NCBI GenBank assembly: GCA_016192075.1
Contig: JACPUU010000011.1
Location: 1-64,000, forward strand
Origin: Bacteroidota bacterium
GTDB taxonomy: Bacteria > Bacteroidota > Bacteroidia > Flavobacteriales_D > Crocinitomicaceae
DNA length: 64,000 bases
Direction: 5' to 3'
This document shows, piece after piece, positions 36,563 to 64,000 of the stretch. The notes below the pieces were generated by a model, which did not search any database, had not been told where the DNA came from, and saw only the letters and a program-made list of their open reading frames with translations. Both the position numbers and the translations under genes were made by a program. Every line of letters begins with the position of its first letter. Within the stretch, counting starts at the first letter, position 1.

Positions 36563-37273
36563 ATGTCCTTAAAACGAAAACGAATTGTTGTACTTACCGG
36601 AGCAGGCATTAGCGCAGAAAGCGGTCTTGGCACTTTCAGGGACAAGGGCGGACTATGGGACGAACACGATATCAACGATGTAGCAACCCCTGAAGCCTGG
36701 ATAAAAAATCCGAAACTGGTGCTTGACTTTTATAACAAACGCCGGGAGATGGTGGTTACTTCCAAACCTAACAGCGCTCACCTTGCGCTTGCCAGGCTTG
36801 AAAAACACTTTGACGTACAAATCATTACGCAAAACATTGACGATCTGCATGAACGTGCCGGATCTTCAGACATTCTTCACCTGCATGGTGAAATTCTGAA
36901 AGCCCGCAGCATTCAGAACGCTGAAAGCCTGTATCACATTGGCGGAAAAAAAATAAAATGGGGTGATCTGGCCCCGGATGGCCATCAGTTAAGACCCCAC
37001 GTGGTTTGGTTTGGTGAACCTGTTCCCAAAATGTACGAGGCTGAAGATATTGTGCGTGAAGCTGATATTTTTATTGTAATTGGTACATCGCTTAACGTCT
37101 ATCCGGCAGCCAATTTAATTTACGTTTGCTCACCCGGCATCGAAAAATTCATTGTTGATTTGAATGAACTGACCAACGTGAAATACAAAAACCTGCAGCA
37201 CCTGAAAGGAAAAGCTTCAGAGCGGGTTCCTGAACTGGTAGATAAACTGATCAACGGAAAAAAACAAAACTAA
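36563..37273 (+). CDS. cobB: Sir2-family NAD-dependent protein deacylase (CobB-like) lacking zinc cysteines
   Basis: This 236-aa cytoplasmic sirtuin removes acyl groups from lysines using NAD. Motifs seen: GAGISAESGLGTFRD (13-26), TQNIDDLH (89-96) and the catalytic His in HLHGE (His108). Later come RPHVVWFGE and GTSLNVYPAA. Y57-N-K-R60 is the Tyr-x-x-Arg pair that in CobB and SIRT5 recognises succinyl or malonyl lysine. The segment between HGE and RPHVVWFGE contains no cysteine at all, so the four-Cys zinc site of typical sirtuins is missing. Similar zinc-less forms occur in other Bacteroidota as I recall. The gene stands alone, divergent from maeB, and ends in a bidirectional terminator. Confidence 0.9.
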   Translation: MSLKRKRIVVLTGAGISAESGLGTFRDKGGLWDEHDINDVATPEAWIKNPKLVLDFYNKRREMVVTSKPNSAHLALARLEKHFDVQIITQNIDDLHERAGSSDILHLHGEILKARSIQNAESLYHIGGKKIKWGDLAPDGHQLRPHVVWFGEPVPKMYEAEDIVREADIFIVIGTSLNVYPAANLIYVCSPGIEKFIVDLNELTNVKYKNLQHLKGKASERVPELVDKLINGKKQN

Positions 37274-37301
37274 AAAGGGCCATTTTCATGGCCCTTTTTT
37301 T
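37272..37301. terminator. Bidirectional intrinsic terminator between convergent genes
   Basis: A 12-bp perfect stem, AAAAAGGGCCAT (37272-37283) with ATGGCCCTTTTT (37288-37299), encloses the loop TTTC. The A and T runs on each side allow it to serve the sirtuin gene (plus) and the small T9SS cargo gene (minus). Confidence 0.88.
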
Positions 37302-37322
37302 AATTCGTATGAATTTATAAAA

Positions 37323-52623: not shown

Positions 52624-55600
52624 TTAATGATGTGCTTCTTCCTGGTTTGGTTCAGTATGCCCCTCGTCCGTGTGTCCCTCTTCTGCATGTTCACCGTGTC
52701 CGGCTTCTTCGTGTGCCGTCTGGATCAGAGCCAAAGCCTCATTGTGCTCATTTCTTACTTTTACTTTGTACCAGATATTTGGTTTTGTACCAACTTCTTC
52801 CAGTACCTGGTATGAACGATCTTCCTGTGAGCTTTTGCGAACCATTGATTCAACGTCATTCCAGTCACCAACTGTAATTGCATTGGTAGGACATACATCT
52901 GAACAAGCAGTTGTAACGTCACCGTCCATTACTTTACGGTCTTCTTTTTTAGCAACCAGTTTACCGGCCTGAATTTTCTGAACGCAGAATGAGCATTTTT
53001 CCATTACCCCACGTGTTCTTACAACAACATCCGGGTTCAGTACCATACGTCCAAGGTCATCCTGTGCAGGATTCACTTCAACAAATTTGCGGTAGCTTGG
53101 ATAGTTGAACCAGTTAAAACGACGCACTTTATATGGACAGTTGTTTGCACAGTAACGGGTACCAATGCAGCGGTTATAAGCCATCTGGTTTAAGCCCTCG
53201 TTGGAGTGAGTGGTTGCAGCTACCGGACATACTGTTTCACACGGAGCGTGGTTACAGTGGTGACACATCATTGGCATGTGAACCACTTTTGGATTTTCAG
53301 CCGGAATTTCCAGCGCGCCAAATCCACCTTTATCAAATGCTGCATCATCACGTGTACCAACAGTTGGTTCAGCATCTGATGCATAATAACGATCCAAACG
53401 CAGCCAGTGCATATCACGGCCACGGCGAACTTCATCTTTACCAACAACCGGTACGTTATTTTCAGACTGACAAGCGATCAAACAAGAACCGCAGCCGATG
53501 CATGAGTTCAGGTCAATTGTCATTGCCCAGCGGTGTCCTACGTGTTCAACCGGGTGTTCATCCCACAGGTTAAATTCACTGATGTGTTTTTCATCGTGAT
53601 TCCAACCTGAATGCAGCATGTGTGCATGGTTGTAGGCTGATTTAGGCTGATTTTTATAAATTTCAAGCGTGGTCTCTTTAACAATAGAGTTACGCGCCAT
53701 TACGGTGCTGTGTGTTTGTGTACAGGCCAGGTGGTACACATCTGCTGTTTTAGTAACTGAGTCAGCATTTACTTCGAGAATTCCATTTGCTGCAATTTTA
53801 TATCCGTTTTCACCGATTTTTTTGCGGCCTCCGTTTGAGCCTGATTCATGTTTACCAAATTCAGTGGTATGGAATGCTGAACGGCCAATTTTTTCTCCGC
53901 CTTCACCGCGTCCGTAACCCAAGGCAATACCAATTGTTTTTGGTGCCTGACCCGGTTGTGGATAAACCGGCAGTGTTAATTCTTTCTCGCCAACTTTAAC
54001 TGTAACTACTGAAGAAGGGCTTTCTTGTCCTACCTCAGTGCTCAGTCCTTTTTCTTTCATATCAGCCGGAGACATGGTTACATAGTTGTCCCAGCTTACT
54101 TTGGTGATAGGATCAGGCATTTCCTGCAACCATGGGTTGCCGGCCTGAATACCTGTTCCGATAGATGCTTTCTGATACAATGAAATTTCCCATTCACTGC
54201 CTGTTACAGCGGCCATGTCTTTTCCGGCAGCAGCCAGATCACCGGTAAACGGCCATACAGACGGAACAGCCACCATTACATCACCGCAACTGTTGTGAAC
54301 GTGTTCATTCCAGTAACTGAAGAAATCAAGGTGTTTTGTTTGTTGCGGGAAACCATATAATTCCCAGTTGTATTTAATGCGGTCGTGCAGATTGGTGCTA
54401 TCAGGACCAACATGGGATGCCTGACCAGACCAGATCATGAGTGATTCAATTGAACCGCGTGTATTGTTTAACGGGCGAATTGTAGGCTGCGCCAGTGAAT
54501 AATGGCTCATTTTCGGATTAAAATCACCCCATGATTCAAGGGCATGATGATCCGGGCAAATATACTGACAAGCAGTAGCTGTTTCATCTGCATAACGGGC
54601 CATTGAAACCGTCAGCTCAACATTGGCAAGTGCTGTTTTGAAAGCTTCTCCGTTTGCGTGTGAATACGCAGGATTGGTATCCCACATAATTAACGCGCCT
54701 ACTTTTTTCTCGTTCATCTCTTTTACCAGACGATCCATTTTTTCATCTTCAGAAACGAATAAATTAATCGGATCATTCAGGTTAATGGCAGAGATATAAT
54801 TATTAAGTGCGTAGTTGATTGAATTGACAACTACCTGGTGTGATTTTCTGTTTGAACCGCAAACCAACAGGGATGTACCTTTGTTTGCTTTCAGTTCTTC
54901 AGCTGCCATTTTTAATTTGGCAACGGTATCTTCAGACAATGAAGCGGTATCAACACCACTGATTGCAGAACCGGCAATTTCTTTGTGTAAGAAAGCCAGC
55001 ACTTTTCCATACTCAGAAGGTTTAACCATTCCGCGTACATCAGCATTTGAACCAGTAACAGACATGTTTGCCTCAAACTGAAAATGGCGTGACATAAAAG
55101 CACCATCAGGGTTTCTGTTTACCAGGTATTGTCCTACAAATTGTGTTGGCAATAACCATGCATTCAGAAAATCTGCTCCGACAGAAACAATAACTTTTGC
55201 TTTAGAGAAATCGTAATCAGGAATAATGCGTTTTCCAAAAGAAGCGAGGTTTGCTTCACGGATACCGTTATATGAAACGGCGTCGTATTGAATGTGTTCT
55301 ACTTTATCAGACGATGCATTAACCGGCATTGCAGCAGCATCAGCCGGAGCAGCCTCACCTTCAGCAGGGGCAGCACCCGGTGTAACAACAGTACCACCGA
55401 ATTTACCGATGAACTGAGAAATAACATCTTGTGCAGACGGGCTGATTACGGTACCTGACAAAAGGACAATTTTTTTACCTTTTGCCTGTGCGTCATTTAA
55501 TCCTTTAATGATATTGGCATCAACACCTGCCCAGTCAGCATCAGCACCTGTCATCTGCGGTCCTTTCAAACGCTCTCCGTCATACAATGAAAGTACAGAA

Positions 55601-56013
55601 GCAGCAATTTGCGGGTTTACTGATCCTTTGGTGAAACCATGATCGCGGTTTCCTTTAATGTGAATAGGACGGGCTTCACGCGTTTTTACCAGAATGCTGG
55701 CATACGAATATCCGTCGTAATACGATGAGGCATACCAGTTGGCAACACCCGGCGTTACTTCTTCCGGTTTTACAACATAGGGTACTGCATTCACAACCGG
55801 AGCTTCGCAGGCAGCCACTGTTGCAGCAGCCACACTGAACCCGAGGAATTTCAGGAAATCACGACGACCTGTTGATGATTCTTTCAATTTATCATCAGCA
55901 AGGAACTGATCTACGGTTAACTCCTGAGGAAATTCTCTTTCAGCACGCTCCGTAAATTGCGGAGTAGCATTTAATTCATCAAGACCTTTCCAGTATTTTT
56001 TAGTTGTTCCCAT
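52624..56013 (-). CDS. actB: Alternative complex III subunit ActB, molybdopterin-oxidoreductase-like iron-sulfur protein
   Basis: The product is 1129 aa. A twin-arginine signal (GRRDFLKFLGFSVAAATVAAC) ends in a cysteine that may be lipidated, so the protein folds with its clusters before export. Residues about 100-740 resemble the molybdopterin oxidoreductase fold but without clear cofactor-binding residues, as is known for ActB. The C-terminal part (about 780-1010) has four cysteine groups: CIGCGSCLIACQSENN, CHHCNHAPCETVCP, CIGTRYCANNCPYK, and CSFCVQKI paired with CSDVCPTNAI. These would hold three [4Fe-4S] and one [3Fe-4S] cluster. It ends in a His/Glu-rich tail. Electrons pass from ActC-bound quinol through these clusters to ActA hemes. 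Confidence 0.95.
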   Translation of the reverse strand: MGTTKKYWKGLDELNATPQFTERAEREFPQELTVDQFLADDKLKESSTGRRDFLKFLGFSVAAATVAACEAPVVNAVPYVVKPEEVTPGVANWYASSYYDGYSYASILVKTREARPIHIKGNRDHGFTKGSVNPQIAASVLSLYDGERLKGPQMTGADADWAGVDANIIKGLNDAQAKGKKIVLLSGTVISPSAQDVISQFIGKFGGTVVTPGAAPAEGEAAPADAAAMPVNASSDKVEHIQYDAVSYNGIREANLASFGKRIIPDYDFSKAKVIVSVGADFLNAWLLPTQFVGQYLVNRNPDGAFMSRHFQFEANMSVTGSNADVRGMVKPSEYGKVLAFLHKEIAGSAISGVDTASLSEDTVAKLKMAAEELKANKGTSLLVCGSNRKSHQVVVNSINYALNNYISAINLNDPINLFVSEDEKMDRLVKEMNEKKVGALIMWDTNPAYSHANGEAFKTALANVELTVSMARYADETATACQYICPDHHALESWGDFNPKMSHYSLAQPTIRPLNNTRGSIESLMIWSGQASHVGPDSTNLHDRIKYNWELYGFPQQTKHLDFFSYWNEHVHNSCGDVMVAVPSVWPFTGDLAAAGKDMAAVTGSEWEISLYQKASIGTGIQAGNPWLQEMPDPITKVSWDNYVTMSPADMKEKGLSTEVGQESPSSVVTVKVGEKELTLPVYPQPGQAPKTIGIALGYGRGEGGEKIGRSAFHTTEFGKHESGSNGGRKKIGENGYKIAANGILEVNADSVTKTADVYHLACTQTHSTVMARNSIVKETTLEIYKNQPKSAYNHAHMLHSGWNHDEKHISEFNLWDEHPVEHVGHRWAMTIDLNSCIGCGSCLIACQSENNVPVVGKDEVRRGRDMHWLRLDRYYASDAEPTVGTRDDAAFDKGGFGALEIPAENPKVVHMPMMCHHCNHAPCETVCPVAATTHSNEGLNQMAYNRCIGTRYCANNCPYKVRRFNWFNYPSYRKFVEVNPAQDDLGRMVLNPDVVVRTRGVMEKCSFCVQKIQAGKLVAKKEDRKVMDGDVTTACSDVCPTNAITVGDWNDVESMVRKSSQEDRSYQVLEEVGTKPNIWYKVKVRNEHNEALALIQTAHEEAGHGEHAEEGHTDEGHTEPNQEEAHH

Positions 56014-56040
56014 ATCTATAATAAGGCTCTTAAATCAATA

Positions 56041-57405
56041 TTAATAGTGACATTTTGCACATTCCAATCCACCCAACTCTGCAACGGTTACCACATCATC
56101 TTCAAGATAAGACTGGTAGGTGCGTTTGTCCATCAATAGTCTCTCATGAATTACTCCATAATAGGAGTCCGGGTTATTTTGAGCAGCACCGGCAATGTCA
56201 ATTTTTGAGTTATTGTGGCATTCAATACACCATCCCATTGTTAAGGTAGGGCGTGTGAATTTCACTGCATTTTCCTGCAGGCCGGCAGTTTTATCTGCTT
56301 CAGTGGTACCAACTGCATTCAGATCAGCTGATGTCATTATACGGGCAACTGTTTCTTTACGCATGTTACCATGACAAGCCTGGCAATCAAGTCCGCCAAC
56401 AACTACGTGTTGTGAGTGATTGAAATAAACGTGATCAGGCAGGTTGTGTACTTTAACCCATTTGATTGGTTTTTCAACGCCTGAATAAGTCATTGTGGTT
56501 GGATCAAATCCGGCAGCGTCGTAAATTTTCTGAATTTCAGCAGTACCGGTTGTTGTACCTTCTGAAACAGCTTTGTGGCAGTTCATACAAACATTCACTG
56601 AAGGAATGCCGGCATGTTTTGATTTGGTTACAGAGCTGTGGCAATATTTACAGTCAATGCCGAGTTTGCCGGCATGCAATTCGTGTGAATAAGCAATAGG
56701 CTGTTCCGGTTTATAGTTTTCATAAACACCAATTTCCATCAGATCCAACATTCCGGCAACGAGCAGAATAATCATCAGAATAAAAGAAGAAACACCGACA
56801 AAGCCTCTGTTATCCCAGGCCCAGCGACGGAAAGAACCAGTAATAGACTCTTGCGGCAATACCTGCTGACCATCTTGTTCACGTGAAATGTTATTAAGCT
56901 GACCTTTAATGCCGCCTACTGTGAAAATAACCACAATCATCAGACCGCCGATTACCCACCAGAACCAAGAAGAAGATTCTTCTGTTCCGACTTCAGCAAC
57001 ATTTTCTGTAGGTTGAACCGCAACCGGAGGAGTGTACGCTTCAACATATTCCAGAACCGCATCAATTTGTTCGTTGGTCAGGTTCTGAGCAGTCATGGAA
57101 GCTTTGTTCCATTTGCTGAACAAACTGTTGGCGTATGAATCACCCGAAGCAATTACTGCGGCTGAGTTACGCACCCAGTTATACATATTTTCCTCAGAGG
57201 AATTGTCAATCCAGCGCTGACGGGCACCTTTCAGTGCCGGACCGGTCATGTCTTTGTCAGGCTTGTGACAAGACGCACAGTTTTGCTGGAATAATTTTTC
57301 ACCGTCTTGCGCAATGGCACGATCATTGTACCCCATTGAGAGGACGATTGATACCACGAAGAACGATTTGAAAGTCTTAGAGATGAACGAACTAGTTATT
57401 TTCAT
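56041..57405 (-). CDS. actA: Alternative complex III subunit ActA, multiheme cytochrome c
   Basis: The ATG at 57405 is preferred over one at 57477 because it directly precedes a signal-like segment (MKITSSFISKTFKSFFVVSI ... AIA-Q). The 454-aa product has six CxxCH motifs. One is in an N-terminal monoheme cytochrome domain (43-47, CASCH). Five more follow in the C-terminal part, starting at residues 252, 273, 341, 393 and 449 (CKYCH, CMNCH, CQACH, CIECH, CAKCH). Two hydrophobic helices (about 165-185 and 215-240) separate the halves and anchor the protein. The pentaheme half is the conserved ActA core. The fused N-terminal domain, which I recall in other flavobacterial ActA, could deliver electrons to the oxidase. 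It is the first gene of the operon. A TAGGTTTG element (57489-57482) lies upstream without a good -33. Confidence 0.92.
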   Translation of the reverse strand: MKITSSFISKTFKSFFVVSIVLSMGYNDRAIAQDGEKLFQQNCASCHKPDKDMTGPALKGARQRWIDNSSEENMYNWVRNSAAVIASGDSYANSLFSKWNKASMTAQNLTNEQIDAVLEYVEAYTPPVAVQPTENVAEVGTEESSSWFWWVIGGLMIVVIFTVGGIKGQLNNISREQDGQQVLPQESITGSFRRWAWDNRGFVGVSSFILMIILLVAGMLDLMEIGVYENYKPEQPIAYSHELHAGKLGIDCKYCHSSVTKSKHAGIPSVNVCMNCHKAVSEGTTTGTAEIQKIYDAAGFDPTTMTYSGVEKPIKWVKVHNLPDHVYFNHSQHVVVGGLDCQACHGNMRKETVARIMTSADLNAVGTTEADKTAGLQENAVKFTRPTLTMGWCIECHNNSKIDIAGAAQNNPDSYYGVIHERLLMDKRTYQSYLEDDVVTVAELGGLECAKCHY

Positions 57406-57644
57406 TTGCAAAATTTTAGGCTTTTTGCTGTTGTGTACACGTTGATTAATCACAGGCAAAATTATAAGAATGTCCATTTACCAAACCTAATCCAACCACT
57501 TTTTAGAGCAGCTAAATCTAATTTAAAATGATTCTAAATAGACAAATAATCACAAACTCTTCGATAATAATCACTTGTAGCCATTCTTTGATCAATTTTA
57601 GAACGATTATTTATTGAAATTACCGGCACCAAAACGGAAATCCC

Positions 57645-57652
57645 TACCTTTG
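57645..57652 (+). promoter_or_regulatory. Possible -7 promoter element before the SPOR gene
   Basis: TACCTTTG matches TAnnTTTG and lies 19 bases before the ATG at 57672. The nearest upstream TTG (57614-57616) is 28 bases away, farther than usual. Confidence 0.4.
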
Positions 57653-57671
57653 TTCTAAATCGAAATATTTC

Positions 57672-58163
57672 ATGAAATTTTTCACCCTGATTTTCACTGT
57701 TTTTTGTCTCGGAAATTTGCTTTTTGCACAAGATCAAAGTCTTGGTTTTCCAACCGGAACTGATACCCTTCCAAAGGTGCAGAATACACTCAATTTTGCC
57801 TCAAAACCAGGTAAACTAAGTGTATACAAAGATGAACGCATTACCAAAATTGAAGATTTTGTACGCACCGGTGAAGGAAGCATTGAGGGTGTAAAAATAG
57901 ACGGCTATCGTGTTTTGATTTTTTTTGACATGTCAAAAACAGTTGTTGAACAGCAGAAAGCTTATTTTCTTTCAATGTATAACCAGCATAAAGCATATGT
58001 TGATTACATGGCACCAAATTACCGGGTGCGTGTCGGAAATTTCAGAACTGAACTTGAAGCTGAAAAACTGAAACAGGAAATTCTGCCTCTTTTTCCAACC
58101 GCCATTGTGGTTTCAGACAAAATTCAATTGCCTGACCTGAATGCTCCGGCTACAAATCCATAA
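57672..58163 (+). CDS. SPOR-domain-like secreted protein
   Basis: The product is 163 aa. A signal peptide (MKFFTLIFTVFCLGNLLFA-Q) is followed by a short linker and a C-terminal SPOR-like domain (about 85-150; YRVLIFFDMSKTVVEQQKA ... YRVRVGNFRTELEAEKLKQEI). SPOR domains bind denuded peptidoglycan glycan strands, often at division sites. No other domain is visible, so this may be a small periplasmic peptidoglycan-binding protein. It is a single gene between the divergent act operon and the convergent infB gene, with which it shares a bidirectional terminator. Confidence 0.85.
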   Translation: MKFFTLIFTVFCLGNLLFAQDQSLGFPTGTDTLPKVQNTLNFASKPGKLSVYKDERITKIEDFVRTGEGSIEGVKIDGYRVLIFFDMSKTVVEQQKAYFLSMYNQHKAYVDYMAPNYRVRVGNFRTELEAEKLKQEILPLFPTAIVVSDKIQLPDLNAPATNP

Positions 58164-58207
58164 GAAACTATCAGGAACCAATCAACGGAATAACCCGCAG
58201 CCATAAA

Positions 58208-58246
58208 ATAAAAAAATCCCGGTCAAAAATGAACCGGGATTTTTTA
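58208..58246. terminator. Bidirectional intrinsic terminator between the SPOR gene and infB
   Basis: ATCCCGGT (58216-58223) pairs with ACCGGGAT (58233-58240), extended by A-T pairs to about 14 bp. It has an A run on the left and a T run on the right, so it can stop transcription from both convergent genes. Confidence 0.9.
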
Positions 58247-58260
58247 TGTTTTGACTTGAA

Positions 58261-60963
58261 TTATAATTTTGATTTGACTTCAACCATCTGGTAACTTTCA
58301 ATGGTGTCACCTACTTTGATGTCATTAAACTTATCAATGTTCAAACCGCACTCGTATCCGTTTTTCACTTCTTTCACATCGTCTTTGAAACGCTTCAGTG
58401 AGCCCAGGTGACCAGTATAGATTACGATGCCATCACGAATGAGGCGAATTTCATTTCCACGAAGAATTTTTCCTTCGGTAACAAAACATCCGGCAATGGT
58501 TCCGATTTTAGAAATATCAAATGTTTCACGTACTTCAGCAGTACCAACAATGTCTTCTTTGTATTCCGGCGCAAGCATTCCCTCCATGGCTGTTTTAACC
58601 TCTTCAATAGCCTGGTAAATGACGGAGTACAGGCGAATGTCGATTTCTTCTTTTTCAGCCAGTTTACGGGCTGTTGCAGATGGCCGTACCTGGAATCCAA
58701 CAATGATTGCGTTGGATGCAGAAGCCAGCGTAACGTCTGTCTCAGAAATGGCACCAACCCCTTTGTGAATAATATTCACCTGAATTTTAGGGGTAGACAA
58801 TTTCAACAGGGAATCAGACAAGGCCTCAATAGAACCATCCACGTCACCTTTGACAATGATGTTAAGTTCCTGGAAGTCTCCGATTGCAATACGGCGCCCG
58901 ATTTCATCAAGCGTAATGTGTTTTTGTGTACGCAAGCCCTGTTCACGGTGCAATTGTTCACGTTTGGCTGCAATTTGTTTCGCTTCTTTTTCGTCAGACA
59001 AGACATTGAATTTATCACCGGCACTTGGTGCACCGGTAAATCCAAGTATTGATACCGGCGTAGACGGGCCGGCTTCTTTAAGTGCCTGCCCACGTTCATT
59101 GTGCATGGCTTTTACTCTTCCGTAATGCTGTCCGGCAACAATAAAATCACCAACATGCAATGTACCCGCTGCTACCAACAGGGTGGTTACATATCCGCGG
59201 CCTTTGTCAAGCGTAGCTTCAACTACGGTACCAACTGCATTTTTATCCGGATTGGCTTTAAGTTCAAGAATATCTGCTTCAAGCAATACTTTCTCAAGCA
59301 AGGCATCTACGTTGGTTCCTTTTTTGGCTGAGATTTCCTGGGACTGGAATTTTCCACCCCAATCTTCAACCAAAATATTCATTTGAGAAAGTTGCTGCTT
59401 AATGCGTTCAGGATCGGCTCCCGGTTTATCAATTTTATTGATTGCAAAAACCATTGGAACACCGGCAGCCTGAGCGTGCGAAATGGCTTCTTTGGTTTGC
59501 GGCATCACATCATCATCAGCGGCAACAATAATAATGGCAATATCGGTTACCTGGGCACCCCGGGCACGCATGGCGGTAAATGCCTCGTGACCTGGTGTAT
59601 CCAAAAACGTGATGTGCCGGCCGCTGCTAGTTTCAACTGAATAAGCACCAATGTGCTGGGTAATACCACCGGCCTCACCACTGATTACGTTTGCTTTACG
59701 GATGTAATCGAGCAGGGATGTTTTACCGTGATCGACGTGACCCATTACCGTAACAATTGGCGGACGCGACTGCAGATCTTCCGGTGAATCGGTATCTTCT
59801 TTAATTGACTCCTGTACCTCAGCACTGATGAATTGTGTTTCAAATCCATACTCGGCAGCAACAATCTGAATGGTTTCAGCATCAAGACGCTGATTGATGG
59901 AAGCAAAAATACCCAGTGACATACAGGCTGCGATGACCTCGTTAACCGAGACACTCATCATGGAAGCAAGCTCAGAAACGGTTACAAATTCTGTTAGTTT
60001 CAGAATACCTTTTTCCTGCTCTTCACGCTCCAGTTCAGCCTCACGTTTTTGCGCAAATAATTCACGCTTTTCACGACGCAGTTTGGATCCCTTGCTTTTT
60101 CCACCACCACCCTGAAGACGGGCCAGTGTTTCTTTAATTTCTTTCTGAATTTCTTCTTCTGTTACCTGCGGTTTGTCAACACGTGATTTACCACCGGCTT
60201 TGTTTGGCATGCCTTTGCGCGGTGCCGTTTCAGCAGCTTGTTTTTCAATGTTGACTTTCTTGATCCGCTTTCTTTTCTTGCGTTCAGCCTCAGACAATTC
60301 ATTGTTGGATTTTTCTTTGGCTACCGGCAGTACAATTTTACCAATTACGGTAGGACCAGTCAGTCTTTCGGTTTTTGCTTTAATGGTTTCAATCTGCTCA
60401 GGCACTACCACTTTAGGGGCTTCAACAACCGGTTTTTCTTCTTTTTTAGGAACAACCTCTTCTGCCTTTTTCTCTTCTTCTACAACCTTTTTCTTTTTGT
60501 CCGGACGTGTTTTCTGATTCAGCGCATCGAGGTCAATTTTACCTACAACGGCTACTTTAGCCTGTCCCTCAGTCACGCGCGGTTTTTCAACCGGTTCAAC
60601 CACTTTTTCAACTTCAGCTTTTACCTCTTCAACCGGCTCTTTCTTCTCTGCCACAGGACGTGCCCGTTTAGGTTTTGGCAGCTCTTCTTCCTCCTCTTCG
60701 GTATCTTCCGATTTTTTGTCTTTTTTGACGTCCTTCAATGAGAGTGACTCCCGTTTTTCACGGGAAATTGCAACATTTTCAGACGCCTGTTTGGCTGTCT
60801 TGTCATCTGCAAATTCCTCATCCAGGATAGCGAGCACTTCCGCTTCGACCTTTGTATTCGGATTCGAATCGAGTTTTACTCCTTTGGTTCCTAAAAAGTC
60901 GATAATAGTAGCAATACTAATATTGAACTCTTTGGCAACCTTATTTAATCTTTTTCCCGACAT
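58261..60963 (-). CDS. infB: Translation initiation factor IF-2
   Basis: This 900-aa GTPase places initiator tRNA on the small ribosomal subunit. The N-terminal IF2-N module ([20 protein letters not shown]) is followed by a long low-complexity, highly charged linker rich in E, K, V and P (about 60-300). A second IF2-N-like helix region ([20 protein letters not shown]) leads to the GTPase domain starting at G408 (GHVDHGKTS). This domain contains DTPGHEAF and NKID. The C-terminal domains II, III and IV end in [17 protein letters not shown]. It is the last gene of the rimP-nusA-infB operon, 84 bases after nusA, and ends at a bidirectional terminator. Confidence 0.96.
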
Positions 60964-61047
60964 TCTTTATAATTCTTTCTTTTTCTAATTCCACGTAATG
61001 CTCCCGATAGCGGGGCTGTGGATTTTCGTTTTTTGTTACGTTGAAAA

Positions 61048-62286
61048 TTACTCCTCAAATTCTGATTTCAGTACGTTCAGTACGTCATCAATTGTTTCTT
61101 CTTCAAGGTCCGTTCTTTTCAATAATTCTTCTTTATTCAATTCCAGGACAGATTTAGCGGTATCCAGACCAATTGCTTTCAGCTGGTCAATAATCCATCC
61201 TTCAATTTCATCTGCAAATTCATCGAGATCCACATCTTCAATATCCTCAGCTCCCTCACGGTAAACATCAATTTCATACCCGGTTAATTTGCCGGCCAGT
61301 TTAATGTTGTGACCGCCTTTACCAATTGCCAGGGAAACCTGGTCTGGTTTCAGATACACCTCAGCCCTGCCACTTTCTTCATTCAATTCAATGGATGTGA
61401 TTTTAGCCGGAGAAAGTGCACGCTGAATAAATAATTTATCGTTGTTGGTGTAATTGATTACATCAATGTTTTCATTTTTCAACTCACGTACAATTCCGTG
61501 AATCCGCGCACCTTTCATACCTACGCAGGCCCCAACCGGATCAATACGATCATCATACGATTCAACGGCAACCTTGGCACGCTCACCTGGCTCACGCACA
61601 ATTTTTTTAATGGTGATCAAACCATCAAAAACTTCAGGTACTTCCAATTCGAATAAGCGCTCGAGGAATTCAGGAGCTGTTCTGGACAACACAATTACCG
61701 GTGTATTGTTTCTAAGATCTACACGCGCAACAACCGCGCGGATTGATTCTCCTTTTTTGAAATAATCCGATGGGATCTGTTCTGATTTTGGCAGAATGAG
61801 TTCATTGCCTTCATCATCCAATACCAGAATTTCGCGCTTCCACACCTGGTAAACTTCACCGGCAATAATTTCACCAATACGTTCACGGTATTTTTTATAG
61901 ATATGATCTTTTTCCAGTTCAAGAATACGTGAAATGAGGTTTTGACGAAGAGCCAATACGTTGCGTCGACCAAAATCACCCAACTTAATTTCTTCAGCAA
62001 CTTCTTCACCTACTTCAAAATCAGCCTCAATTAATTTTGCTTTTGAAAGCGCAATTTCAAGATTTTCATCTTCTACTTCACCATCAGGCACAATTTCACG
62101 GTTGATCCATATTTCAAGATCTCCTTTATCAGGGTTAATGATAACATCGATATGCTCGTCATTACCAAATTTTTTCTTCAGCATTGAACGAAAAACATCC
62201 TGAAGAATGTTCATCATGGTTTCCCGATCGATGTTTTTAAACTCTTTAAATTCAGAGAAGGATTCAATTAATTCCAGCGCATTCAT
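61048..62286 (-). CDS. nusA: Transcription termination/antitermination factor NusA
   Basis: The product is 412 aa. It binds RNA polymerase and nascent RNA and modulates pausing, termination and antitermination. The N-terminal polymerase-binding domain (LELIESFSEFKEFKNIDRE) is followed by an S1 domain (about 130-200; GEIIAGEVYQVWKREILVL) and KH domains (DPVGACVGMKGARIHGIVREL and SLAIGKGGHNIKLAGKLTGYEIDVY). It ends in an acidic helix region with TAKSVLELNKEELLKRTDLEEETIDDV. The long duplicated C-terminal acidic repeats of E. coli NusA are absent. It starts 20 bases after the rimP stop. Confidence 0.96.
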   Translation of the reverse strand: MNALELIESFSEFKEFKNIDRETMMNILQDVFRSMLKKKFGNDEHIDVIINPDKGDLEIWINREIVPDGEVEDENLEIALSKAKLIEADFEVGEEVAEEIKLGDFGRRNVLALRQNLISRILELEKDHIYKKYRERIGEIIAGEVYQVWKREILVLDDEGNELILPKSEQIPSDYFKKGESIRAVVARVDLRNNTPVIVLSRTAPEFLERLFELEVPEVFDGLITIKKIVREPGERAKVAVESYDDRIDPVGACVGMKGARIHGIVRELKNENIDVINYTNNDKLFIQRALSPAKITSIELNEESGRAEVYLKPDQVSLAIGKGGHNIKLAGKLTGYEIDVYREGAEDIEDVDLDEFADEIEGWIIDQLKAIGLDTAKSVLELNKEELLKRTDLEEETIDDVLNVLKSEFEE

Positions 62287-62306
62287 AATCTACATTACTA
62301 CATTAA

Positions 62307-62780
62307 TTAAAAAGTGATAACCAGTTTTGTTTCTTTGATTTCATTGTATTTAAGCGGGACACTCTGCGTAACCCATTCTTTTTTCTTTCTGCCCTCAATG
62401 GCCTTTTTTTCTTTGGTTTCAATTACAAAAGAGGTTTCGTCTGCTTTTACAATTGTTCCCTCAAGGCTTCCTTTTTCGGGTAATTTAACTTTTACCGGGC
62501 GGCCAATATTTTTGATGTATTGTTTGTACACCCGCAGCGGCTGATCTATTCCGGCTGACGACACTTCCAGTGCAAAATCTTCAGCTTCACGATCGAGGTT
62601 ATGCTCGATATTTCTGCTCACGGCCACACAATCTTCAATAGAAACCGAGCCTTGTTCCCGGTCAATTTCTACCAGGATATTGTTTGAACCGCTGATTTTG
62701 ATTTCGACAATGTATAATGCCGGATCATGCTCTGCTATTCGCTCCTGTGCCAGTTCTTCTATTCTGCTTTTATTAATCAT
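62307..62780 (-). CDS. rimP: Ribosome maturation factor RimP
   Basis: The product is 157 aa from the ATG at 62780 (MINKSRIEELAQERI). An upstream ATG at 62819 would translate through the leader hairpin and add an unlikely extension. RimP helps mature the 30S subunit. The N-terminal domain (LYIVEIKISGSNNILVEIDRE; SIEDCVAVSRNIEHNLDRE) includes the conserved ALEVSSAGIDQPL motif. The C-terminal SH3-like domain (GRPVKVKLPEKGSLEGTIVKA) follows. It is the first gene of the rimP-nusA-infB operon. A short leader with a predicted promoter and a strong terminator-like hairpin precedes it, suggesting attenuation. Confidence 0.94.
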   Translation of the reverse strand: MINKSRIEELAQERIAEHDPALYIVEIKISGSNNILVEIDREQGSVSIEDCVAVSRNIEHNLDREAEDFALEVSSAGIDQPLRVYKQYIKNIGRPVKVKLPEKGSLEGTIVKADETSFVIETKEKKAIEGRKKKEWVTQSVPLKYNEIKETKLVITF

Positions 62781-62791
62781 TGCGTATAAAA

Positions 62792-62813
62792 AGAGGGGAC
62801 TGTTGTCCCCTCT
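62792..62813 (-). terminator. Terminator-like hairpin in the rimP leader (possible attenuator)
   Basis: AGAGGGGAC (62792-62800) is the exact reverse complement of GTCCCCTCT (62805-62813), with a 4-base loop. On the minus strand it is followed by a T-rich run and then the rimP ATG 11 bases later. It looks like an intrinsic terminator placed inside the leader. Confidence 0.7.
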
Positions 62814-62841
62814 CATCAATGTATAAATAAATATTACAGTG

Positions 62842-62877
62842 CAAATATACGCATTTTCTGATCAAACGACCAAAAAA
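62842..62877 (-). promoter_or_regulatory. Bacteroidota-type promoter for the rimP-nusA-infB operon
   Basis: On the minus strand TATATTTG (62849-62842) matches the -7 consensus, and TTTTTTG (62877-62871) lies 21 bases upstream as the -33 element. Transcription would start near 62835, giving a leader of about 55 bases. Confidence 0.6.
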
Positions 62878-62936
62878 CCGTAAAAGTTTCTGGTTTTAAG
62901 ATGGATATTGTGCCTTTGAGGGCTGATTGCGGCGTG

Positions 62937-63710
62937 CTAGCGTGTCCGGATCTCAAACAAAACCAGTTTAGCCGGTGATGCATCGCTTTCAAGGCTTGCA
63001 ATCTGGATATTCAAAAAATAAACGTCATCCTTTATAGCATCAGGCACAAATACCATTTCGGTAATGGTTTTATGAAGCCAGGGATTTTGCGGATAGTTCC
63101 AGAACAAATGATGCGCCGCCAATTCGCCGCCATCGTTTTCACGGTCAACCGACGGCAAATCAACCACCAGGTGATCAATACCCAAATCAAGAATATACTG
63201 TATGGCCGCGGTGGTGAGGTAAGCCGGGTTGGTGTTTGAATAATTGCGGTGGCGTTTTTCAGTGGTGTTATCCGCTGTTCGAATAATCAAAGCATTACAG
63301 CCTGCTGCATTGCCCGCACATTTGACAGCTTCTTCAACCAGTTCTTTGGTAATAACCTGGTCCTGCTGGTTATACTGTTCATTTTTGACAACCTGTGGTG
63401 CTACTGAAATCAGCTGTGCTTTAAAATGAAATTCACGCAGACATTGGTTAATGGTAAAATTTTCTTTTGAGATATGGCCCACGCATTCTGTATGCGTCCC
63501 GTTTCCATGCGGGTTAAGCATAATATTCCGAAAATTAACACTGCCGCCGCGGTTCACATCTCCCACAAACTGTGCAGTAATTACCGGTTCAATTTTTACA
63601 GGGTCGCAGTACCAGGCTCTGACTGAATCAGAATCGGCAGAAAGGGGAATTGAAATATCCATTCCGGCCGCGGTGTCAATATACGTTTCTGGGTCAAGAT
63701 ATAATTGCAT
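62937..63710 (-). CDS. Cyclase-family (kynurenine formamidase-like) hydrolase
   Basis: The product is 257 aa and predicted cytoplasmic. The metal-binding motif of the family appears as HGNGTHTECVGH (consensus HxGTHxDxPxH). Further conserved elements are LIIRTADN, YLTTAAIQYILDLGIDHLVVDLPSVDRENDGGELAAHHLFW with the Asp and His of the active site, and EMVFVPD. The family includes arylformamidases and polyketide-type cyclases. The substrate here is not evident, and no tryptophan catabolic genes are adjacent. It lies upstream of rimP on the same strand, but a predicted promoter separates them. Confidence 0.85.
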   Translation of the reverse strand: MQLYLDPETYIDTAAGMDISIPLSADSDSVRAWYCDPVKIEPVITAQFVGDVNRGGSVNFRNIMLNPHGNGTHTECVGHISKENFTINQCLREFHFKAQLISVAPQVVKNEQYNQQDQVITKELVEEAVKCAGNAAGCNALIIRTADNTTEKRHRNYSNTNPAYLTTAAIQYILDLGIDHLVVDLPSVDRENDGGELAAHHLFWNYPQNPWLHKTITEMVFVPDAIKDDVYFLNIQIASLESDASPAKLVLFEIRTR

Positions 63711-63823
63711 TGGTCAAATGTAACGGAAATTCACCACACCTGTTAGCGGTTTGCCCTCACAATGTTCAGGCCGGAATGGTCACACCATAGCTGAAAAAAT
63801 TGTAATTTCGTTCTACAAACGGT

Positions 63824-64000
63824 ATGGCTAAACACAAACTCTTTGCAGAAGACGATTATGAATTTGAGCTGATTGGTATTTGCTCCAACAACAGCGATTA
63901 CCGCTTGTGCTGGAATATTAATCAATGCCTTCAGATTGGTTTGAGCAAAGGAGATGATTATTCACTATTGTCAAAAAAAGACGGTGAAAGTTTTCATTCG
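63824..64000 (+). CDS. IPExxxVDY-family protein, 3' part beyond window edge
   Basis: An ATG at 63824 opens a frame of 59 codons running to the window edge. The N-terminus (MAKHKLFAEDDYEFELIGIC, then SNNSDYRLCWNINQ) resembles the small Bacteroidota IPExxxVDY family, whose members begin with a similar DYEFELIGI ... DYKLAW segment. The diagnostic C-terminal motif lies outside the window, so the call rests on the N-terminus only. Function of the family is unknown to me. It is divergent from the cyclase-family gene. Confidence 0.75.
   Translation, partial: MAKHKLFAEDDYEFELIGICSNNSDYRLCWNINQCLQIGLSKGDDYSLLSKKDGESFHS

Follow-up and report, generated by a model that had tools for sequence, protein, structure and literature searches.

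Autoregulation of NusA in Bacillus subtilis by termination in the leader is reportedly the subject of a primary paper by Mondal from 2016. A review describes the process as NusA-stimulated termination in the gene's own 5' leader (PMC12288461). For the rimP-leaders, Naville and Gautheret proposed in 2010 an attenuation with NusA as the best candidate (PMC2965389). The leader of the rimP-nusA-infB operon analysed here has several features in common with the attenuators as described in that paper: a terminator hairpin with a U-stretch in the leader of the same operon, a G-rich 5' arm and a C-rich 3' arm (here GAGGGGAC and GUCCCCUC), a hairpin located 4-130 nt from the gene start (12 nt here, median of 15 nt in 67 loci) and no larger conserved element or antiterminator (here a 4-base complement was found in 0 of 67 leaders). 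A possible difference lies in the letters, with the class-specific GAGGGGAC/GUCCCCUC in place of an exact GGGc/gCCC, and a further one in the predicted leader, which is only about 57 nt long. With regard to the published GGGc(...)gCCC motif, our locus shows GGG and CCC within GGGGAC/GUCCCC, and some relatives carry GGGGC/GCCCC. The B. subtilis nusA operon likewise has an intrinsic terminator in its leader, which is predicted from the sequence in our case, whereas the B. subtilis leader of about 180 nt (PMC2965389) is much longer than the one described here. The term "Bacteroid" is absent from the main text of PMC2965389. By sequence comparison, the element is a new, class-specific example of the known rimP-leader attenuator type.

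No Rfam family reached its gathering threshold in the window, i.e., the complete analysed stretch of 64,000 nucleotides. For the leader, allowing E-values of up to 10, we obtained eight sub-threshold matches, to other families. The family RF01770 ("rimP", 102 positions) stands for the same gene and also has a hairpin before the start; however, its covariance model fails here, with no match in the window or the genome, and among 14 control genomes it matched in E. coli only. The rimP leader of E. coli K-12 contains two tandem hairpins (by eye) with the tRNA gene metY upstream, and our own class model, R1, gave no match there. For Flavobacterium psychrophilum a structured, transcribed 5' element of rimP was listed without Rfam hits (PMC9723704). 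It resembles the present element as a structured 5' region found in other Flavobacteriaceae genera, but it appears there as a list entry only, without sequence or mechanism, and was likened by its description. In the main text of the B. thetaiotaomicron transcriptome paper (PMC7366714) rimP is absent. Within the literature on rimP/nusA leaders and Bacteroidota, covered mostly through papers outside subscription, no other description of the element was recognised.

All genes of the locus lie on the minus strand. A cyclase gene (62937..63710, Pfam and ORF list) is followed by rimP (62307..62780, RimP_N and RimP C-terminal SH3 domains), nusA (61048..62286, with the N-terminal NusA_N, S1 and KH domains) and infB (58261..60963, IF-2), all assigned by Pfam. 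Past infB, the operon probably ends in a terminator at 58211..58245, a site found by the consensus scan only. Promoters of Bacteroidota follow a -33/-7 consensus. Upstream of rimP we found a -33-like TTTG (62871..62874), a spacer of 21 nt and the predicted -7 box TATATTTG (62842..62849), which has the form TAnnTTTG and was also obtained in the class comparison. The same form of the box is given in PMC9723704. Placing the transcription start 4-5 nt past the -7 box, the predicted 5' leader of rimP-nusA-infB covers 62781..62837. The box is separated by 29 nt from a hairpin GAGGGGAC-AACA-GUCCCCUC (62793..62812), in which 62812-62805 pairs with 62800-62793 to form a stem of 8 bp around a loop of 4 nt (AACA). 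An additional pair A62813-U62792 extends the stem to 9 bp. The U-tract UUUUU (62788..62792) is followed by AUAC as a distal interruption, and the rimP ATG is located at 62780, i.e., 11 bases past the 9-bp stem and 12 nt past the 8-bp stem. Thus, the preliminary description, which had named a -33/-7 promoter match at 62842-62877, a perfect 9-bp hairpin at 62792-62813, a U-rich tail and the rimP ATG 11 bases later, was correct in each of these elements. Folding the 50 nt that reach from the predicted transcription start to the last U of the tract gave the hairpin as the only structure in the best fold (-18.3 kcal/mol, z of -5.28, none of 200 shuffles as stable). In a 68-nt piece the hairpin gave -21.6 kcal/mol (z of -5.25). 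Reading both strands of the 4.65-Mb genome, the exact stem pattern was found at one site.

An in-frame TTG/ATG at 62819/62816 (window 62814-62819) extends the rimP reading frame through the hairpin. A rimP start upstream of the hairpin was rejected, as the distance from hairpin to start was spread over all three frames (26/21/20 of the 67 loci) and an open in-frame upstream ATG was present in only 3 of 67. Automatic annotation may call a wrong rimP start at such codons.

For the comparison, rimP was detected in 38 of 39 genomes of relatives, 59 of 61 genomes of the phylum and 35 of 40 genomes of the class. Loci were taken from 30 of 39, 30 of 59 and 30 of 35 places, respectively, and merging of overlapping loci left 67 distinct class-level leaders plus 15 from outside the class. 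Among the first 30 leaders, the hairpin was found by script in 28, while the other two had variant hairpins by eye. When the whole leader was folded, the best structure contained the hairpin for 64 of the 67 class-level loci, and weaker hairpin forms were seen by eye in the remaining 3. The leaders were aligned with MAFFT (alignment A1, 67 rows, 65 distinct). The 8-bp stem was paired in 94.2% of the cells compared to 86.1% in shuffles and 43-73% when the stem was slid along the alignment. Changes on both sides were observed for 7 of the 8 stem pairs, a number which 5 of 500 shuffles got to, and the covariation score of 0.329 (0.181 in shuffles) was reached by none of 500. RNAalifold recovered the same 8-bp stem. 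Counting the pairs from outside, the fourth was G-C in 67 of 67 leaders and the third was G-C in 66 and G-U in one, with hairpin limits set by hand for 23 of the 67 loci, which leans towards paired arms. The conservation next to rimP and the compensatory stem changes for which the preliminary description had asked were both observed.

A generic terminator scan of 55000-64000 did not report the rimP-leader hairpin among its sites; our guess is that the scan ran the stem into the U-tract, which left too few T. As the 11 terminator-like sites in this region were close to the mean of 9.6 in shuffles, a consensus match alone is no proof and the case rests on comparison. We then applied a strict filter, which required five or more stem pairs, an energy not above -7 and four or more T within the first six positions; 56 of the 67 class-level rimP leaders passed. 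Among other genes with an intergenic leader 8 of 351 passed, one of which is a rimP site (L108). The 11 class loci that failed had shorter, bulged, mismatched or T-poor hairpins, including weak ones as in L022, L153, L185, L187 and L199. Outside the class the filter was passed by 5 of 15 rimP leaders; by eye and with looser folds, a hairpin plus T-run of other sequence was seen before rimP in 14 of 15, with L168 showing no hairpin by eye or in looser folds. The general design may therefore be wider than the class, with the letters as a class signature. In these outside leaders (L164-L178) the hairpin letters differ, and L167, L172, L174 and L175 have the class motif inverted, with the run of C in the 5' arm.

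Controls were drawn from the same DNA, where 191 convergent gene ends, with genes called as simple ORF picks, gave 46 terminator-like hairpins. In the class leaders, TTTTT followed directly after the stem in 43 of 67. Comparing the 56 filtered leaders with the 46 controls, T was less frequent in the leaders at +6 (0.48 versus 0.85), +8 (0.32 versus 0.54) and +9 (0.29 versus 0.61), and the opposite was found at +7 (0.75 versus 0.54), which speaks against a weakening at every far position. Over +6 to +9 the mean was 1.84 T of 4 in leaders and 2.54 in controls, with a Mann-Whitney p-value of 8e-5 that is optimistic because the leaders are related sequences. By these T counts the distal interruption of the U-tract, the suboptimal-terminator feature of the B. 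subtilis type, was found in the leaders. Terminators that depend on NusA or NusG have been described with such interruptions, their 3' ends lying 7-9 nt away from the hairpin (PMC8060035). The stems were stronger in leaders than in controls (median of -15.0 versus -12.05 kcal/mol), so the element is not of the weak-hairpin kind of NusA target. Six loci had at most 3 T among the first five positions (L160, L184, L186, L188, L189, L197), with L160 counted as T-poor only because its stem was set one pair short. The other five combine a hairpin with a poor U-tract and would be terminators that depend strongly on a factor, unless their hairpins serve another role.

Regarding the letters of the stem, GGGGAC..GUCCCC was present in 39 of the 56 filtered leaders and in 0 of the 46 control terminators, in whose 5' arms CCC was commoner than GGG (16 versus 6 of 46). 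By this comparison, conservation of the letters goes beyond what termination alone would require of the stem. A similar remark on letter conservation in other bacteria was made by Naville and Gautheret (PMC2965389).

Based on the comparison of leaders, we consider it likely that hairpin and U-tract form a leader terminator of the rimP-leader kind, which would act partially and whose efficiency would most likely be set by NusA. In this model, RNA polymerase would start about 25 nt before the hairpin and arrive at the terminator near +45 to +50. Some of the transcripts would end there as RNAs of about 50 nt, and others would continue into rimP, nusA and infB. NusA bound to the polymerase would help the hairpin to form and would promote pausing at the U-tract, whose distal part is weak; a rise in NusA would then increase termination and lower the synthesis of new NusA. 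In the 67 loci, the part of the leader that precedes the hairpin is short (about 21 nt) and poor in G+C (26%). A 4-base complement to the six outermost bases of the 5' arm was found in it in 0 of 67, so that no sign of a conventional upstream antiterminator is seen. Since the start codon lies past the hairpin and a frame through the hairpin is not conserved, translation of rimP cannot decide on termination. With no antiterminator seen and the rimP start placed past the hairpin, the choice would be made neither by an RNA switch nor by rimP translation. A NusA feedback as in B. subtilis is the most economical reading for this leader, with the NusA dependence carried over by analogy from other phyla. 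Of the NusA-dependent attenuation through a short leader proposed in the preliminary description, the conserved hairpin behind a promoter box stands and matches the published proposals, while termination itself and the part of NusA are predicted.

The strict conservation of the letters is compatible with a further reading, namely that the letters themselves are read, and that the emerging 5' arm GAGGGGAC, or else the folded hairpin, offers NusA or another factor a sequence-specific site. We regard this as possible, though doubtful. As the letters were absent from 46 of 46 control terminators, conserved class letters are what a sequence-specific reading predicts. Because the terminator lies only about 25-50 nt past the predicted start, the polymerase would have to gain the factor right after leaving the promoter; if the reading was true, the leader would act as a gauge of the rate at which free NusA associates with new elongation complexes. 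Alternatively, leader termination may be real but tuned by NusG, RimP, a ribosomal protein or polymerase speed in place of NusA. Distal U-tract interruptions also occur in NusG-dependent terminators (PMC8060035), RimP feedback was raised as a possibility by Naville and Gautheret (PMC2965389), and letters conserved beyond pairing are expected for recognition by some protein. However, NusA is encoded in the operon itself, and its autoregulation has been reported for E. coli (cited in PMC2965389) and B. subtilis (PMC12288461), which makes tuning by one of the other factors unlikely in our view.

Third, the hairpin could act post-transcriptionally, either by protecting the 5' end from decay or by hindering ribosome binding near the start codon. 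In the 67 loci, the median distance from the end of the best-scoring hairpin to the start codon is 15 nt, near enough for contact with a bound ribosome, and a few relatives have the poor U-tracts mentioned above. On the other hand, a T-run follows directly after the stem in most loci. The fold obtained for our locus had suggested that the start codon pairs with the 5' leader; this was rejected, as such pairing was found in 13 of 67 loci and 22.4 were expected from shuffled 5' segments. A post-transcriptional role of this kind is very unlikely.

Whether the hairpin belongs to rimP was examined as well. Scanning a collection of 84,980 genomes with the pattern GAGGGGACN{3,6}GTCCCCTCTTTTT, which finds exact motifs only, at least 118 stretches with the exact motif were obtained, and all 118 listed, holding 121 matches, were rimP leaders. 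For 115 of the 121 listed matches rimP was found downstream by tblastn. Two stretches (L051 and L063) are cut by their end, yet match a related RimP start, and the other four listed matches are rimP sites seen from the opposite strand, the motif being nearly palindromic. As far as names tell, the 80 record titles among the matches listed are Bacteroidota. A TAnnTTTG box was present at most 60 nt upstream in 108 of 117 rimP-oriented matches listed and in 67 of 67 class-level loci. In 65 of 67 it was located 13-31 nt (median of 27) from the best-scoring hairpin, compared to 45 of 2946 control windows of 33 nt holding such a box. The nearest upstream long ORF was found on the same strand in 39 loci and on the opposite strand in 25, with none found in 3. 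Given a box upstream of the hairpin and neighbours of any orientation, the hairpin is, as far as the comparison goes, a leader element of rimP and not the terminator of the upstream gene; it lies past the promoter box and does not move with that gene. With the box, and thereby the predicted start, upstream in all 67 loci, the sequence also speaks against a transcription start downstream of the hairpin. That the hairpin is the 3' terminator of the cyclase gene, with another rimP promoter further down, was the simpler alternative of the preliminary description and is most improbable, for although the cyclase gene is on the same strand, ends at 62937 and would have its readthrough stopped as well, the box lies between this gene and the hairpin, the hairpin is kept where the neighbour points away (25 of 67) and the 12 nt from the 8-bp stem to the ATG leave no room for a promoter.

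In 5 of 8 contigs scanned (L041, L077, L106, L115, L121; the three with titles are Bacteroidales or Bacteroidetes), the rimP hairpin is preceded at a distance of 17-70 nt by a tRNA-Gln (TTG) gene of the same strand. The arrangement is like that of metY before rimP in E. coli, and in these loci the hairpin may also end the tRNA transcript.

For a possible wider regulon, the model R1 was also used to search 39 genomes, which is partly circular since it was trained on many of these loci. By our reading of the matches listed, rimP was the best match in 22 of 24 genomes of the own family and in only 4 of 15 other genomes of the order; three of these 15 and one of the 24 had no match listed. In the own genome rimP reached 40 bits versus 32.5 for the next match listed. 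Several other strong R1 matches fall on both strands, as bidirectional terminators do. The second-best R1 site in the window (37267-37306) was matched on both strands with 27.6 and 24.3 bits and looks like an ordinary bidirectional terminator.

The layout of the element is compact, with the box, about 27 nt, an 8-bp hairpin, the U-tract and the start codon about 15 nt past the stem. The motif is also present in Flavobacterium johnsoniae (L065), and its small size makes reporter testing easy. For annotation tools it provides a signature without counterpart in the Rfam copy searched. With this element, a known but little-studied attenuator would be extended to the class of the analysed bacterium, which raises the questions of how the amount of a general elongation factor may be regulated in this phylum and whether the stem of a terminator may double as a sequence-specific protein site.
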